A DNA stretch of 64,000 nucleotides. Source: Scytonema tolypothrichoides VB-61278 (GTDB lineage: Bacteria > Cyanobacteriota > Cyanobacteriia > Cyanobacteriales > Nostocaceae). Numbering within the stretch: position 1 is the stretch's first letter; each line of letters opens with the position of its first letter. Positions 24,915-48,460 of this stretch are shown here, piece after piece. The notes beneath the pieces were generated by a model, which saw only the letters and a list, made by a program, of their open reading frames with translations, was not told the DNA's origin and did no database searches. Position numbers and translations under genes: made by a program. The stretch is from the NCBI RefSeq assembly GCF_000828085.3, contig NZ_JXCA02000002.1:685070-749069 (forward strand). The letters run 5' to 3'.

Positions 24915-27410
24915 TCATTGCTCACGCACAGACGCCAGATGCTCTACTTGGGGAGCCAGTGCGTTGCTGCGCCAGCGCCGGGGTGAGGCAGCGCGGTCTT
25001 GGGGGTTTCGCCCATGAGCGACTGCCGAAAGGGTTTCCCGACTTGAGGCGTCTGGCGTTGGGGTTCCCAAGGACGGTGCACCTGGCACCAGACCCCAAGA
25101 CCGCACTGGGGACTCAGTTGCTGATTCTCCAAGAGGGGGGGTAAAAGTATCTTTTAAGGGCTGACATAATCTCACCACTTCGCTTTGAGCTTTGGGAATC
25201 TTTAATGACTTGAATTTAGAGAATGAAATTTTGACTTCATCTCCTGGGTTGAGTAAAGGTTTTTTGGCTGTGGCAGAAGTTGGTTGTGAGTTTGATGGAC
25301 TTGCTTGCCCGATAATAGAGCAGACTCGCAGATAGATACTTGTGTCTTTCTCTGTTTTTTGTGTCTTGAGAATTTGCAAAACACTACCTTTTGGGGCGAT
25401 CGCACCTTTTGGGGGCGAGGTCGTTGTTATGAATTCTATTTCGCTGTTAGTTTGAAAAATCACTCCTGCTGCATTCACACTATCTTTGCTCGAATTACCC
25501 GAACTGTCCTGAGAACCACTTGTGATCGGTGGTAGCGGCATAGATGGTAGTTTCTCCGGACTTATTCTTGGTGAGGAGTTGATCGGGAGCGATCCAGTAC
25601 GCCACAGGTATGCCAACAAACTGCTAACAACAAATAGTAGGGAAATAACAATCATCTGTAGCGGTAATTTTATACTTTTGACGGGCTTGCTTGTTGGCAT
25701 GACCTGAGTTTTCTGATTTTTACCCAGAGGTGATGCAACTTGTGGAGTTTTTATCTGAGTGTTAGAAGGTTTTGGTAATGTAGAGAGGTTAGCAAGGGTG
25801 GTGTTAAGGGTTGATTTTGGCTCTGAGTATTTAACTTGGCAGTGTACTAGCGCTATGGTGACATTATCGTGTCCATTTTGAATATTCGCGATTTCCACTA
25901 ATTTATCTGTGACTTTTGCTATGTCAAAATTTTCAGTAATAATGGGTAAAATTTCTGTTTCCCAGTATTGCTCTACGCGGTCAAAGTCACTCAAACCGTC
26001 AGAACACAGCAGAAAAACGCAATCTTCGTCGAGAACAAATCGTTGTGACGTCGGATGCAATAAATGACTGGCACTCATGCCTAATGCCTGCACCAAAGAC
26101 CCTGATGCTCCCTGTTGGACTGCATCTCGGTATGTGGCATAGCCTAAGCGTACCTCACGAGAAGCAACATCGTCATCTAGAGTCACTTGATAGCAACCAG
26201 AACGTGTAATCCAATAAGCACGGCTATCACCAACGTGGGCAATGTACATTTGATGAGCAATGGGCAATGCCATCACTAGGGTTGTGCCCATGCGTTGACG
26301 TCCTTGCCGATGTTCGTCGTCGTTGCGCTGGCTGATGATGTCATTTGCAGCAGCGGTTGCCCCTTCTAACTGCGCAAGTAGAATAGATGAGTCTATATCC
26401 TCAGAAGGCAATTTCGTCAGCTCATGCAGGTGCTGTTGAATCGTTTCAATTGCTAAAAGTGATGCAACATTGCCTCCCTCGTGTCCACCAATGCCATCAC
26501 AGACAATAGCTAAAGCTGTCTGTGATGGAGGTTTGCTGACAATACTGCCAGCAGGAGGGTAACAAGCATCTTCATTACGTTGGCGACAAGGTCCTGTGTC
26601 AGTCTTGGTGACTATTTTGATAATAGGTGTTTGGGTTTGCCCTAATTGTGTTAACCCTCTGTCTATAATGGCAACGAGTTGCTCACCAGAGTGTATTTCT
26701 CCGGCAATCAGAGAACGACACATTTCACCCAAAAATTCGGCGATCGCCCCTTTGGCTTGTGGCTGTAACTGCTGCCAAAATTCCCCAAGTTGGGGTAAAC
26801 CAGGGGAAGTTTGATTGTCTTGACGCAATTCTAATAAGCGTACTAACGACCCTTCTACCCTGATTAACTCTGGGTTAAGTAAGCTAGAGGCTACGCCTTC
26901 ACTCGCCAGAGGTTGCCACAGATGAGCTATCTGCCACAGCAAATTCAGTTGGCGTATTGATGTTGCGTTATGCCAAGCTGTGTTTAACTCCCAAGCAATC
27001 TGCACTTCCAACGGTTCTGTACTGTCTAGCACAGAAAGCGGAGGTTTTTCTAAAAGTAATATTTCTTTGTCAGATGTGTCGCTAGTCATCGGCAGCATTC
27101 CATACACTTGCGGTACGTGCAAGCGGTAGGGAAATAGCCGCAAGTAAGGTTTTATTGCCTGTACATGTTCTCCATTTGGCGTTTGGGGTAACAAACCGGG
27201 CTTGGTATCCAAAAGAAGCGCCTTGCTGATAACCAAATAGCGATCGGCTAATAATTCTCCGGCATTAGCCAAACTTTCCCCATCTGCCACAGCCCAGAGG
27301 AATCGTTTAGGCAGGGGTGTGGAGCATCTTAGGCAAAATTTGTGTGTAAGCGGGTTTTGAGCTTGACAAAGTTCATTTGGGCAGTAGAGCGTTGCCGCGT
27401 CATTTTCCAT
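24915..27410 (-). CDS. Zinc-ribbon PP2C-type protein phosphatase with transmembrane segment
   Basis: 831 residues. An N-terminal zinc ribbon (Cys at 10, 15, 27 and 30) precedes a degenerate kinase-like or linker region (about 50-260). A PP2C phosphatase follows at about 265-525 with metal-binding motifs RNEDACY, VCDGIGGHEGG, HVGDSRAYW, LCSDGLSDFD and HDNVTIALV. One membrane span lies at about 582-604, then a Ser/Pro-rich extracytoplasmic domain. PP2C enzymes reverse Ser/Thr phosphorylation. The last 70 or so residues (from about 25130 down) are encoded by dispersed-repeat DNA and differ from the rest in composition, so the original C-terminus was probably shorter. Confidence 0.9.
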   Translation of the reverse strand: MENDAATLYCPNELCQAQNPLTHKFCLRCSTPLPKRFLWAVADGESLANAGELLADRYLVISKALLLDTKPGLLPQTPNGEHVQAIKPYLRLFPYRLHVPQVYGMLPMTSDTSDKEILLLEKPPLSVLDSTEPLEVQIAWELNTAWHNATSIRQLNLLWQIAHLWQPLASEGVASSLLNPELIRVEGSLVRLLELRQDNQTSPGLPQLGEFWQQLQPQAKGAIAEFLGEMCRSLIAGEIHSGEQLVAIIDRGLTQLGQTQTPIIKIVTKTDTGPCRQRNEDACYPPAGSIVSKPPSQTALAIVCDGIGGHEGGNVASLLAIETIQQHLHELTKLPSEDIDSSILLAQLEGATAAANDIISQRNDDEHRQGRQRMGTTLVMALPIAHQMYIAHVGDSRAYWITRSGCYQVTLDDDVASREVRLGYATYRDAVQQGASGSLVQALGMSASHLLHPTSQRFVLDEDCVFLLCSDGLSDFDRVEQYWETEILPIITENFDIAKVTDKLVEIANIQNGHDNVTIALVHCQVKYSEPKSTLNTTLANLSTLPKPSNTQIKTPQVASPLGKNQKTQVMPTSKPVKSIKLPLQMIVISLLFVVSSLLAYLWRTGSLPINSSPRISPEKLPSMPLPPITSGSQDSSGNSSKDSVNAAGVIFQTNSEIEFITTTSPPKGAIAPKGSVLQILKTQKTEKDTSIYLRVCSIIGQASPSNSQPTSATAKKPLLNPGDEVKISFSKFKSLKIPKAQSEVVRLCQPLKDTFTPPLGESATESPVRSWGLVPGAPSLGTPTPDASSRETLSAVAHGRNPQDRAASPRRWRSNALAPQVEHLASVREQ
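24930..25135. repeat. Dispersed repeat forming the PP2C gene's 3' end
   Basis: It contains the 68-bp unit at 24982-25049, which matches 47749-47816 in inverted orientation with about seven differences, plus TTGGGGAGCCAGT (24948-24960), also at 44584-44596. It is read in frame as the phosphatase C-terminus. Confidence 0.85.
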
Positions 27411-44112: not shown

Positions 44113-46569
44113 TTAGGGGCTAGCTATCGCCTCAATTATAGATAACGGTACTTCCGCAAAATACTGTCGCTGAAATTGTTCTTCCCGAACAGCAGCTAAA
44201 AATTTTTCTACAGCAGCCTCTGCTTGAGTTGTTTCTATGGTATGCTGCTGATTAAAAACCAACATACGGTCTTGACGTGAGATTGTGAAACCCAAATATC
44301 TCAAACCTCTTAACCCAAAAAGTAAAGTTTGGTCATTGATACCCAGCTTTTCCAATAACTGAATACGGGTCACAGGTTGATTTGTGCGGCTGAGATATTT
44401 AGCAATTCCTACAAGAGTAAACCAGATTTGTTCTGGTGGTTTGGGATTTGGTTTTGACCAAGCTAGTGCTAGGGGTTGTTGGTTGTGAAGCGATCGCCTC
44501 AAATGCACACGTAAATCATCCCAACTTGTCGGACACTCTTTGAGGAGGAGGGGAGGAGTCGGGAGTCGGGAGGAGGCAGTGCGTTGGGGAGCCAGTACTG
44601 CAGGAGGGTTTCCCTCCGTAGGTATCTGGCGTTCGGGTTTCCCGACTTGAAGCAACTGCCGTTCGGGAGTCGGGATATTCCGCCAATCTATAATAAGTGT
44701 TTGAGATGACGATGCTAATGCTGAGTTCACCCGGGAACGTACAGCTATAAGTCGGATTTCATAGCGTTTTTTGAAAGTGTTGTAGTCCAGTTCAGCTATA
44801 CAATCACACCTTCCTAGTGGTAATTCATCTTTATAATGTCCCCACCAGACCCCAGGAAAAGGATTTCTTGTCGAATCATCCCGAATATCAAACTCCGCTT
44901 TTATGTACTGTACCTTTTTCCCCTGCGAATCTTGCTGATTGCGATGCCAAGTATTTTCAAACCAGCAGTTTTGAATCAAAAGTTTCGGAACTGGGTTTCC
45001 CATTCCACAAGGTTCTAGCAGTTTCAATTCCAGAAATAAATCTTTCCCCAAATCTGCTACTGCCACAGCTAAGTCAGCCTGCACAGTTGGTGTTAGAGTT
45101 ACTCCTCCCAGAGATTGACGTAACCTCTGGTTAATTGCTTGTGTAAATAAAGGTATATTCTCTACTGGAAGACTTAACCCTGCTGCATAAGGATGTCCAC
45201 CAAATCGATGCAACAAATGTGCTTGGTCTTTTACTAATTGATATAAATCAACCGAATTGACAGAACGCGCTGAACCCCGCGCGAGAAGAGGAGGGGGGGA
45301 AGGGGGAGATGAGGAAGTATTTAGAAATTCTTCTCCTTGTCCTCCTTGTCCTATCTCCCCAGTTACCTCTGTACTCAACAAAATTGTCGGGCGTCCTGTG
45401 TCCTGTGCGACTTGTCCAGCGACTAACCCTAAGACGCCGACAGCCCATTGGGGGTCTTCCAAAACGATGACGCTGGTGGTTGATAAGTCCATTTTGGAGA
45501 GTTTTTGCGCGACTTGCCCAGCAACATCTTTCTGCAAAGACTTGCGACGACTGTTCGCTAATTCTGTGACTTCTGCGAGTTCATTCACACGCTTTTGGTC
45601 GCGACTTGTGAGTAATTCCACGCAAAAAGAAGCATCACCTTGAATGCGACTGACAGCGTTAATTCGGGGACCTAAACCAAAGGAGATATCTGTGGGGCGA
45701 TCGCCACTTTTCTGGCATAATTCCAACAGTCGCCCGACACCCGGACGCCGTCTCTTATCTGGTGTTTTCTTAAAATCCTCTTGTAGTCGCCCAATTCCCA
45801 ACTGTGCCAAATAGCGACAGTCTCCACTCAACTGCACCAAGTCAGCAATAAGTCCAACCGCGACTAAATCCAACAAATCCTCTAACGGTTGTTGCGGGAC
45901 ATTTGGCAGAGTTTGATAAAAAGCCTCCACCAACTTGTAAGCCACCGCCACCCCAGAAAGATGAGACAGTTGATGTGTTTCTGGCAAATAGCGAGGATTA
46001 ATAATTGCCGTTACAGGGGGACGTTCCGGAGGTAAGGTGTGATGGTCTGTCACTATAACATCTACACCCAGGTGTTTGGCATAAATAATTTCACTAATAT
46101 TTGTACTGCCAGTATCGCAAGTCACAATCAACTGAAAGCCTTGTCTTGCAAGCTTATCAATTCCTTGGCAGTTCAATCCGTGGGATTCGGTTAAGCGATT
46201 AGGAATGTAATAAATTAGCTGCGTATTTTGGGCCAAAAATTGTCCCAAACCATCCCACAGAACAGCAGTAGATGTAATACCATCAGCATCAAAATCTCCC
46301 CAAATAGCAACTTTTTCCCCAGCATCTCGTGCTTGTTGCAACCGTTCCACCGCCAGATGCATTTCTTGCCCAAACTCAAACGGACTCGCAGCTTCATAAG
46401 CTTGTGAGTTGACAAAAGCGTCTAATTGTGGTTTTTCTCTGATTCCTCGTTGCCATAACAACTGCGCTGCAAAATACCCACCCGATGCAGGTGCATATTG
46501 CTTCACCGCTTGGATAAACGATTCTGGCGGTTGTTCAGTTGTTGCAAGAATCCACTGTTGTTCTGACAT
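44113..46569 (-). CDS. recJ: Single-stranded-DNA-specific exonuclease RecJ with two repeat-derived inserts
   Basis: 818 residues, longer than the usual 700-760. DHH phosphoesterase motifs are intact: WGDFDADGITS, VTDHHTLPPE, and a HRFGGHPYAAG motif of DHHA1, plus the OB-like region. It degrades ssDNA 5' to 3' in recombinational and mismatch repair. Two in-frame inserts interrupt it: about residues 399-440 (45250-45371, Gly/Pro/Ser-rich) and 630-676 (44540-44680), both encoded by dispersed repeats and both at loop-like positions outside catalytic motifs. The gene is probably functional. Confidence 0.92.
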   Translation of the reverse strand: MSEQQWILATTEQPPESFIQAVKQYAPASGGYFAAQLLWQRGIREKPQLDAFVNSQAYEAASPFEFGQEMHLAVERLQQARDAGEKVAIWGDFDADGITSTAVLWDGLGQFLAQNTQLIYYIPNRLTESHGLNCQGIDKLARQGFQLIVTCDTGSTNISEIIYAKHLGVDVIVTDHHTLPPERPPVTAIINPRYLPETHQLSHLSGVAVAYKLVEAFYQTLPNVPQQPLEDLLDLVAVGLIADLVQLSGDCRYLAQLGIGRLQEDFKKTPDKRRRPGVGRLLELCQKSGDRPTDISFGLGPRINAVSRIQGDASFCVELLTSRDQKRVNELAEVTELANSRRKSLQKDVAGQVAQKLSKMDLSTTSVIVLEDPQWAVGVLGLVAGQVAQDTGRPTILLSTEVTGEIGQGGQGEEFLNTSSSPPSPPPLLARGSARSVNSVDLYQLVKDQAHLLHRFGGHPYAAGLSLPVENIPLFTQAINQRLRQSLGGVTLTPTVQADLAVAVADLGKDLFLELKLLEPCGMGNPVPKLLIQNCWFENTWHRNQQDSQGKKVQYIKAEFDIRDDSTRNPFPGVWWGHYKDELPLGRCDCIAELDYNTFKKRYEIRLIAVRSRVNSALASSSQTLIIDWRNIPTPERQLLQVGKPERQIPTEGNPPAVLAPQRTASSRLPTPPLLLKECPTSWDDLRVHLRRSLHNQQPLALAWSKPNPKPPEQIWFTLVGIAKYLSRTNQPVTRIQLLEKLGINDQTLLFGLRGLRYLGFTISRQDRMLVFNQQHTIETTQAEAAVEKFLAAVREEQFQRQYFAEVPLSIIEAIASP
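44545..44690. repeat. Dispersed repeat inside recJ
   Basis: It carries TTGGGGAGCCAGT (44584-44596, also at 24948-24960) and GGTTTCCCGACTTGAAG (44636-44652), shared with the 68-bp unit copies at 25033-25049 and, inverted, 47749-47766. A second low-complexity insert in the gene is at 45250-45371. Confidence 0.85.
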
Positions 46570-47416: not shown

Positions 47417-48460
47417 TTACAGACTGACTTCTTGAATGTTAGCTATATTCAGTAGGTTCGTCTCTAATATTGTAGAATTTGTAGGAGATATCTGCCCAGG
47501 AGTAGCGAGTGAGTTAATGTCTTGGGCATGGCTTTGGCGATTGCAGCGTGTTGTATACTGACAGTACTCACAGGCTTTGCTACCTTCTGGTTCTTGGGGA
47601 AATAGTTCTCCCTGGTAGTAATGTTCCATCCAATAGTTTAAGCGACTTAAAAGCTGGTTAAGTTTTTTTGCTGTTTGTTGGTGTCGCCTGGTGTTGTAAC
47701 TAAATTTAACACTTTGCGGTGAGGGGGTCGCAGTCTTGGACGCCACTTCCTTCAAGTCGGGAAACCCTTTCGGCAGTTCCTCATGGGGGAAACCCCCAAG
47801 ACCGGACTGCCTCACCAACGGAGTGGCGCAGCTTCCCGTCGATTGCGTTCGCGCAGCGTCTCCGTTAGCGTAGCGTGCCCGCAGGGCATAGGAGTTACCC
47901 CCGAACCCGGAGGGTTTACCTTCTGACTGGACAAACCAGTAAGTCATAGAAATATTTTCTGGCAGATAATTGCTTGTTTCTGCTAAAACATACAGGTAAA
48001 GACGTGTTTGCCAGTTTTGTTCCAACTTGCGTTTATTGGGCGGTTTGGGATAAGTTTTCCAGTCAAGAATTTGTGCCTGCTGGTTATCTGCAATCAATAA
48101 ATCATAAATAACCGTGAGCAAATAATCTTGAACTTGCAGAGTACGGTAGTGTTCGCTTTCACGAAAAGTTTGGCTATTGGAACTAGAGTTTAAAATTTCT
48201 GGTGCTGCATTCGCGAAAGCAGACATCCAGCTTTGCAGTTGGGCATCCTCTTGTAGAAAAGTATCAATGGGTAAACCCATTTCTCGCTGCTGCATCAGCA
48301 AGTGAAAGCGGCTTCCTAAAGTTTGCCGTTCTTCATGTTCCGGATCTAAGGGAGAATGGAGTTGTTCTAGGTACGTGTGTTGAAATTGACGGGGACAACG
48401 TTCTAGCAGGTTGAGTTGTCCTTGCGAAAGTCGCAAGAGTTGAGTTTGAGTTGATTGCAT
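47417..48460 (-). CDS. PD-(D/E)XK nuclease with predicted 4Fe-4S cluster and repeat insert
   Basis: 347 residues of the RecB/AddB/Cas4-like nuclease family. The active site includes ILDWKTY (D and K) near residue 137. An N-terminal C22 (LERCPRQF) plus C297, C300 and C306 (CxxCx5C near the C-terminus) match the iron-sulfur staple of AddB-type nucleases. Residues about 177-250 (47711-47930) are an in-frame insertion read from dispersed repeats, lying between the catalytic and the C-terminal cluster parts. Function probably in DNA repair; no helicase neighbour. It is close to recJ, also on the minus strand. Confidence 0.8.
   Translation of the reverse strand: MQSTQTQLLRLSQGQLNLLERCPRQFQHTYLEQLHSPLDPEHEERQTLGSRFHLLMQQREMGLPIDTFLQEDAQLQSWMSAFANAAPEILNSSSNSQTFRESEHYRTLQVQDYLLTVIYDLLIADNQQAQILDWKTYPKPPNKRKLEQNWQTRLYLYVLAETSNYLPENISMTYWFVQSEGKPSGFGGNSYALRARYANGDAARTQSTGSCATPLVRQSGLGGFPHEELPKGFPDLKEVASKTATPSPQSVKFSYNTRRHQQTAKKLNQLLSRLNYWMEHYYQGELFPQEPEGSKACEYCQYTTRCNRQSHAQDINSLATPGQISPTNSTILETNLLNIANIQEVSL
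47711..47930. repeat. Dispersed repeat inside the PD-(D/E)XK gene
   Basis: Includes the 68-bp unit at 47749-47816, the inverted partner of 24982-25049, and adjoining GC-rich wording (GCGTTCGCGCAGCG type). The gene remains open through it. Confidence 0.88.

Follow-up and report, generated by a model that had tools for sequence, protein, structure and literature searches.

The window analysed here is a stretch of 64,000 nucleotides from the cyanobacterium Scytonema tolypothrichoides VB-61278, and three genes on its minus strand carry hairpin repeats in frame. A PP2C-like open reading frame (ORF) of 831 residues (24915-27410) and a PD-(D/E)XK nuclease ORF of 347 residues (47417-48460) were assigned with Pfam, and a recJ-like gene locates between them (44113-46569). 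The initial annotation pointed to a 68-bp repeat in the first two genes. We found that positions 24982-25049 and the reverse complement of 47749-47816 are identical at 61 of 68 positions, just as it had estimated, and the ORF list places each copy inside a single ORF. The two genes indeed read opposite strands of the repeat: the PP2C-like gene reads against the strand of the covariance model described below, and the nuclease gene reads the model strand. The 68-bp stretch itself, however, cannot be kept as the repeat unit. It consists of one 40-base inner hairpin plus part of a surrounding hairpin layer, and the true inserts exceed it: the nuclease gene holds 195 bp, the PP2C-like gene a 177-bp segment.

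The resemblance is not a chance match, because an 88-bp query hits 41 places in the 7.89-Mb genome of this strain (E <= 0.001), and the 23-base core with up to two mismatches has 16 matches in the same genome and 12, 12, 7, 4, 6 and 5 in six congeners, against none for the core read backwards in the same search. Copies are thus dispersed well beyond the two sites first noticed, and none of the homologues examined carries the same residues at these positions.

In the PP2C-like gene, the insert segment covers 24933..25109 (177 bp) and gives a net gain of 168 bp, or 56 codons, over the orthologues L041 and L043. Its borders were placed by eye from alignments, since no exact junction exists at this site. 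Three concentric layers, all on the plus strand, lie within it. The arm-pair scan revealed an outer layer of 132 bp (24955..25086; arms GCCAGTGC / GCACCTGGC) and a middle layer of 86 bp (24971..25056; arms GCCAGCGC / GCGTCTGGC), and the inner unit, a 40-base bulged hairpin (24987..25026; arms GGCAGCGC / GCGACTGCC), was found by both the covariance model and the scan. The element core encodes residues 790-810. Despite the insert, the stop codon of L041 and L043 is kept in frame, and the insert is absent from all seven relatives aligned.

The nuclease gene carries an insert of 195 bp, or 65 codons, at 47721..47915, with GT directly before it and GT at its end. It is absent from all 109 orthologous loci tested, a number pooled from two sets in which some genomes are counted twice, and extra sequence at the site does not exceed 14 bases in any of them. 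The insert-free junction was found exactly, with eight bases on each side, in three of six relatives searched. Two layers are nested on the minus strand. The inner unit, a 40-base bulged hairpin (47772..47811; arms GGCAGTCC / GGAACTGCC), was recovered by model match and scan, and its core corresponds to residues 216-235. The outer layer of 86 bp (47742..47827; arms GCCACTCC / GGAAGTGGC) was paired by eye; it has C-G at a pair that is G-C in 22 of 22 rows of the model alignment, and by eye this position still pairs. The arm-pair scans missed this layer because they demand CAG/CTG and the pair is flipped to C-G.

The remainder of the nuclease insert (47829..47915) holds further repeat-like sequence, whose translation partly matches another ORF of the same genome. 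We notice that it is a different repeat module: part of the translation has an 85% match in a 626-aa open frame (G000:C3:609358-609459, in L253). The predicted structure of the nuclease is too poor to use (mean pLDDT 36). A defence-family search matched the nuclease to Cas4-type families only (best E 3.5e-8) and gave no match for the PP2C-like protein.

A third in-frame copy, missed by the initial annotation, was observed in the recJ-like gene. Its 90-bp insert (44573..44662, plus strand; 30 codons) is in frame and absent in the relatives examined, and the insert-free junction was found exactly, with ten bases on each side, in one of four relatives (L237). The outer layer of 86 bp (44575..44660; arms GGCAGTGC / GCAACTGCC), found by the arm-pair scan, encloses a 40-base inner unit (44591..44630; arms GCCAGTAC / GTATCTGGC), found by model match and scan; both lie on the plus strand.

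The unit of this family is a hairpin of 40-41 bases with one bulged base in the 3' arm (SSCAG-YVC ... GBR-N-CTGSS), plus short ends. Setting the 41 genomic places side by side, we find that the inner palindromes vary between copies. Two types can be told apart. Type 1 starts with GAG, ends with CGT and measures 44-45 bp at exact empty sites, and type 2 carries an extra small 3' hairpin (GAACCCCGAAGGGG), measures 57 bp and inserts at the dinucleotide GT. The covariance model has at least 149 matches in the genome of this strain, a lower bound because 150 of 2631 candidates were scored with it. No Rfam family matched at its gathering score between 24500 and 48600 of the window.

Covariation was examined in 41 distinct contexts that were picked through the inner 23-base core alone, without any demand for pairing, because the model rows came from a pairing-demanding scan and are partly circular; pairing counts from that alignment (A1) and model (R1) were kept out of the evidence. 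In these contexts, whose rows are related copies, 286 of 328 outer-stem cells pair, whereas 2000 shuffles average 241.8 and never exceed 258, and the changes are two-sided. When the partner is slid by one or two bases, 75 to 100 cells pair (fewer cells are available wherever the shift runs past the end of the stretch). The usual arms are absent from four rows (L079, L098, L108 and L164). At L115, L116 and L123, other sequence has been inserted just before the 3' arm, and the arm GCGACTGGC lies behind it. Folded as single-stranded DNA, the 57-base unit is 4.8 SD better than its shuffles, the recJ nest 3.5 and the nuclease nest 3.1. The PP2C nest is 2.0 SD better, and 4 of 200 shuffles fold as well.

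Nesting is a recurrent property of the family. An arm-pair scan of 101 sources (the window and 100 loci of the same genome, mostly chosen by family matches) returned 51 hairpins that are 40 bases long and 27 that are 41 bases long, together with 19 arm pairs spanning 86 bases, and one shuffle of these sources gave no arm pairs of 40 or 41 bases. The 40/41-base count describes the family rather than proving it independently, because the sources were chosen by family matches. The nesting offset, in contrast, was not built in: 13 of 34 nested pairs share a left offset of 16 bases and a right offset of 30, so elements often sit at one place in another element. A nested layer adds 46 bp, and solo units measure 44, 45 or 57 bp, so that lengths vary. 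The PP2C nest, with its 132, 86 and 40 bases, is the sole chain of three with offsets of about 16/30 in the 101 sources.

At a threshold of E <= 1e-5, the model hits 22 of 24 genomes within the same family, compared with 1 of 16 taken from elsewhere in the order. Six plasmid records match, two from Nostoc and one each from Fischerella, Brasilonema, Halotia and Stanieria, and no match was found in phage records. The Stanieria plasmid match falls outside the subgroup of the present strain and lies inside a gene annotated as IS605 OrfB.

Comparison with congeners revealed exact empty sites. At L076, L077 and L078, insertions of 57 bp locate at GT, and GT remains on both sides. The insert at L140 fits the same rule by eye, and the empty site at L082 is less clear and lacks GT. 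An insertion of 45 bp lies at an exact empty site at L176, one of 45 bp was found in a NACHT gene, and one of 44 bp lies between heptamer repeats at L085. For the GAG...CGT type, the exact empty sites have no common target word. Apart from L085, the two borders of an exact empty site have 0 to 3 bases in common, with two to three at some borders. Neither the flanks of 127 model matches nor the exact empty sites show a target duplication of fixed length. The TCATTGG-like heptamer array around the L085 site differs in length between species (L341, L343-L345 and L366). A long target duplication was considered at L085 and rejected, because its repeats are part of an array that occurs without the element too.

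Absence is probably the original state at the empty sites. L352 and L354 carry the element at L078, whereas L338, L339 and L347 do not, and this split among relatives indicates that it is older than some species splits. Some lineages may also have lost copies, because at the L076 site the first part of an element is retained in L353 and L356, and L352 and L354 have the L078 element in common.

Of 127 matches, 111 copies were tabulated against ORFs, leaving out one overlapping match on the opposite strand (L144) and the 15 lowest-scoring; L088 lies outside the 100 loci behind the 127 matches. ORFs of at least 100 aa contain 34 of the 111 copies, and 77% of control positions. ORFs of at least 300 aa contain 14 copies, in 13 ORFs, compared with 52% of control positions from the same loci or 58% from the window. 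With this depletion in long ORFs, the genic copies look like in-frame survivors. They were recognised through open frames, and frame-breaking insertions thus fall outside the count. According to Pfam, the 13 large ORFs encode the PP2C-like protein, the PD-(D/E)XK nuclease, RecJ, Omp85, three tnpB products, a NACHT/HEAT protein, a polyketide synthase, a hydantoinase, a hybrid histidine kinase with two elements, L199 (a sub-threshold FAD-oxidoreductase match) and L140 (no Pfam match).

Leaving aside the three tnpB genes, we compared the other ten loci with relatives, using translations for the hybrid histidine kinase, and each of the ten has one or more relatives without the element. At eight genic loci, the translated relatives have an uninterrupted frame through the site, with L219 as the exception; for L233 no frame was obtained. 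Many of the sites are variable linkers or tails, and 15 to 65 codons are added where measured. In the large ORFs, elements lie in both orientations and in five of the six phases.

The initial annotation also proposed that the sequence avoids stop codons in at least one frame of each strand. A copy has on average 4.02 of 6 frames open, compared with 2.44 for random 59-mers of the window and 3.77 (3.45-3.98 in 30 rounds) for dinucleotide shuffles. The open frames are thus mostly a matter of composition, and what stands of the proposal is a small excess over the shuffles. We rejected stop avoidance as an adaptation, given how small this excess is. The three frames of the strand opposite to the model are open in 99, 95 and 102 of 111 copies, and those of the model strand in 66, 48 and 36.

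The gene at L199 shows absent, single and nested states of one insertion. L208 and L209 lack the element, the present strain has one, and L211, from congener G003, carries this element too, with two additional units nested within. All four genes have an open frame, of 709, 709, 736 and 757 residues from stop to stop, respectively, and the net additions are 78 bp in the present strain and 144 bp in L211. If absence is the older state, the series is a stepwise nested growth of a protein segment. In the orthologue L219, from congener G005, the linker contains other low-complexity sequence and is not crossed by one frame.

We also observed elements in frame in tnpB/IS605 OrfB genes or fragments at L137, L145, L160, L171 and L367, the last being the Stanieria plasmid. 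Genes for tnpB make up 3 of the 13 large ORFs with elements. We found 52 tnpB domains; of the 149 model matches, 4 are no more than 500 bp away from such a domain, where 0.98 would be expected. Among six tnpB genes that score identically (381-aa frames), one has a model match within 2 kb among the matches listed. tnpB was therefore rejected as the source of the elements, and the link is read as tolerated insertion.

The best overall explanation of the observed dispersal, covarying structure, exact empty sites, nesting and open frames, and one we consider quite probable, is that these are nested copies of a tiny non-autonomous mobile hairpin, the genic ones being in-frame survivors. The 68-bp repeat would then be a fragment of such nested copies. 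Units would insert at many places, one preferred place being inside an existing unit, and repeated insertion there would build the concentric nests. Most copies lie outside long genes, and those in genes would be the ones that kept the frame, many of them in variable linkers or tails. An enzyme acting in trans may recognise the folded single strand, either DNA or RNA. The added residues are probably translated and tolerated rather than useful. The opposite view, that the element is kept in genes as a coding module for a useful peptide, could appeal to its in-frame position in conserved genes and to the genic site common to two species (L199 and L211). It appears very unlikely, as the orientations and phases leave no common peptide, long ORFs are depleted of copies and most orthologues examined lack the element. 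A classical MITE, with terminal inverted repeats, a fixed target duplication and a DDE transposase, is improbable too. The arms are inverted and direct repeats of 6-12 bases lie beside 6 of 127 matches, but re-paired flanks alone give about 3 such cases per set, the L085 array occurs without the element too, the other exact empty sites share 0 to 3 bases, and duplications at the exact empty sites are variable or missing.

Two further proposals concern the mechanism only. In REP/REPIN-type mobility, which is compatible with the mobile hairpin, a Y1 (HUH) tyrosine transposase cuts the folded strand beside a short guide. The bulged imperfect hairpin and the lack of a long target duplication would suit it, the genome has eight Y1 genes, GTAG REPs are reported from Anabaena and Nostoc (PMC3733652), and the RAYT-containing genome of Nostoc punctiforme has been analysed (PMC3116915). 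We nevertheless regard it as rather doubtful here, as the GTAG end is absent and no model match flanks any of the eight Y1 loci within about 1.5 kb on each side. Template switching around hairpins during replication would need no dedicated enzyme and fits the compensated arms, the nests and the two to three bases common to some borders; the recurrent unit length and nesting place suggest instead a defined recognition step, which makes it unlikely. More tentatively, the mobile hairpin could possibly form a class of its own, an ultra-short element whose bulged hairpin carries its own insertion site, so that each copy takes the next. A recombinase or reverse transcriptase would act on the folded strand, with GT as the target of one subtype and no fixed target duplication, and in genes the element might act as a ratchet that lengthens linkers stepwise while the frame stays open.

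Among known systems, the small dispersed repeats of Nostoc are the closest kind, likened here by description rather than by sequence. SDR1-8 of Nostoc punctiforme and relatives, described by Elhai and co-workers in 2008, are reportedly very short and dispersed, with compensatory changes in their stems, and two of the families reportedly nest in their own copies. They are also said to be largely restricted to one cyanobacterial group and often to lie among heptamer repeats. The present family is alike in the compensatory changes of its common hairpin (286 of 328 cells paired, against a shuffled maximum of 258), in nesting in its own copies (the 16/30 offsets, and L199 compared with L211), in its distribution (22 of 24 genomes within the family, 1 of 16 outside, with the Stanieria plasmid match as an exception) and in the heptamer context at L085. 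The SDR unit, however, is reportedly 21-27 nt, in contrast to 44, 45 or 57 bp at the exact empty sites here, and because of this misfit we do not class the family as SDR, a separation made by description rather than by sequence comparison. In addition, SDR5 inserts precisely in HIP1, according to a paper that cites the SDR work (PMC4390886), whereas the present units insert at GT, in themselves or elsewhere.

DDE-type MITEs differ from the present family, which has no target duplication of fixed length. Copies of the Rickettsia palindromic elements (RPEs) lie largely in coding sequence. The initial annotation had likened the 68-bp repeat to them, and this holds for the presence of palindromic repeats in frame in unrelated genes, as in Rickettsia (PMC3733652). 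It does not extend to mostly genic copies: the lineage is another, 14 of 111 copies lie in long ORFs against 52-58% of control positions, and the units nest, the two being compared by description rather than by sequence. In several bacteria, REPs are also found within ORFs, among them the repair genes uvrA and recB, where they encode 20 to 82 residues, and the cyanobacterial REP families GTAG-12, -15 and -16 exist (PMC3733652). The published intragenic REPs may include cyanobacterial cases (PMC3733652). GTAG/CGTC REPs resemble our family as small hairpins with complementary stem changes, some of them inside ORFs (PMC3733652). The present unit differs in being larger, in having no GTAG/CGTC end but mostly GTGA or GGGA before the stem, and in having no Y1 gene beside a copy (8 Y1 loci). 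In our comparison, the family thus seems to work like a mixture of SDRs and in-frame RPE/REP repeats.

Among the titles and abstract openings listed in our literature searches, which covered few subscription papers, none concerns in-frame small repeats in cyanobacterial genes, and in-frame REPs in other bacteria are already published (PMC3733652). What is new here are the exact insertion sites and the absent, single and nested series inside one gene. Together, they document, for free-living cyanobacteria, how protein sequence can arise from hairpin repeats. The recurrent place of self-insertion and the GT target offer a concrete handle on the machinery that moves such tiny elements, and our findings extend a pattern previously described for Rickettsia and for REPs.
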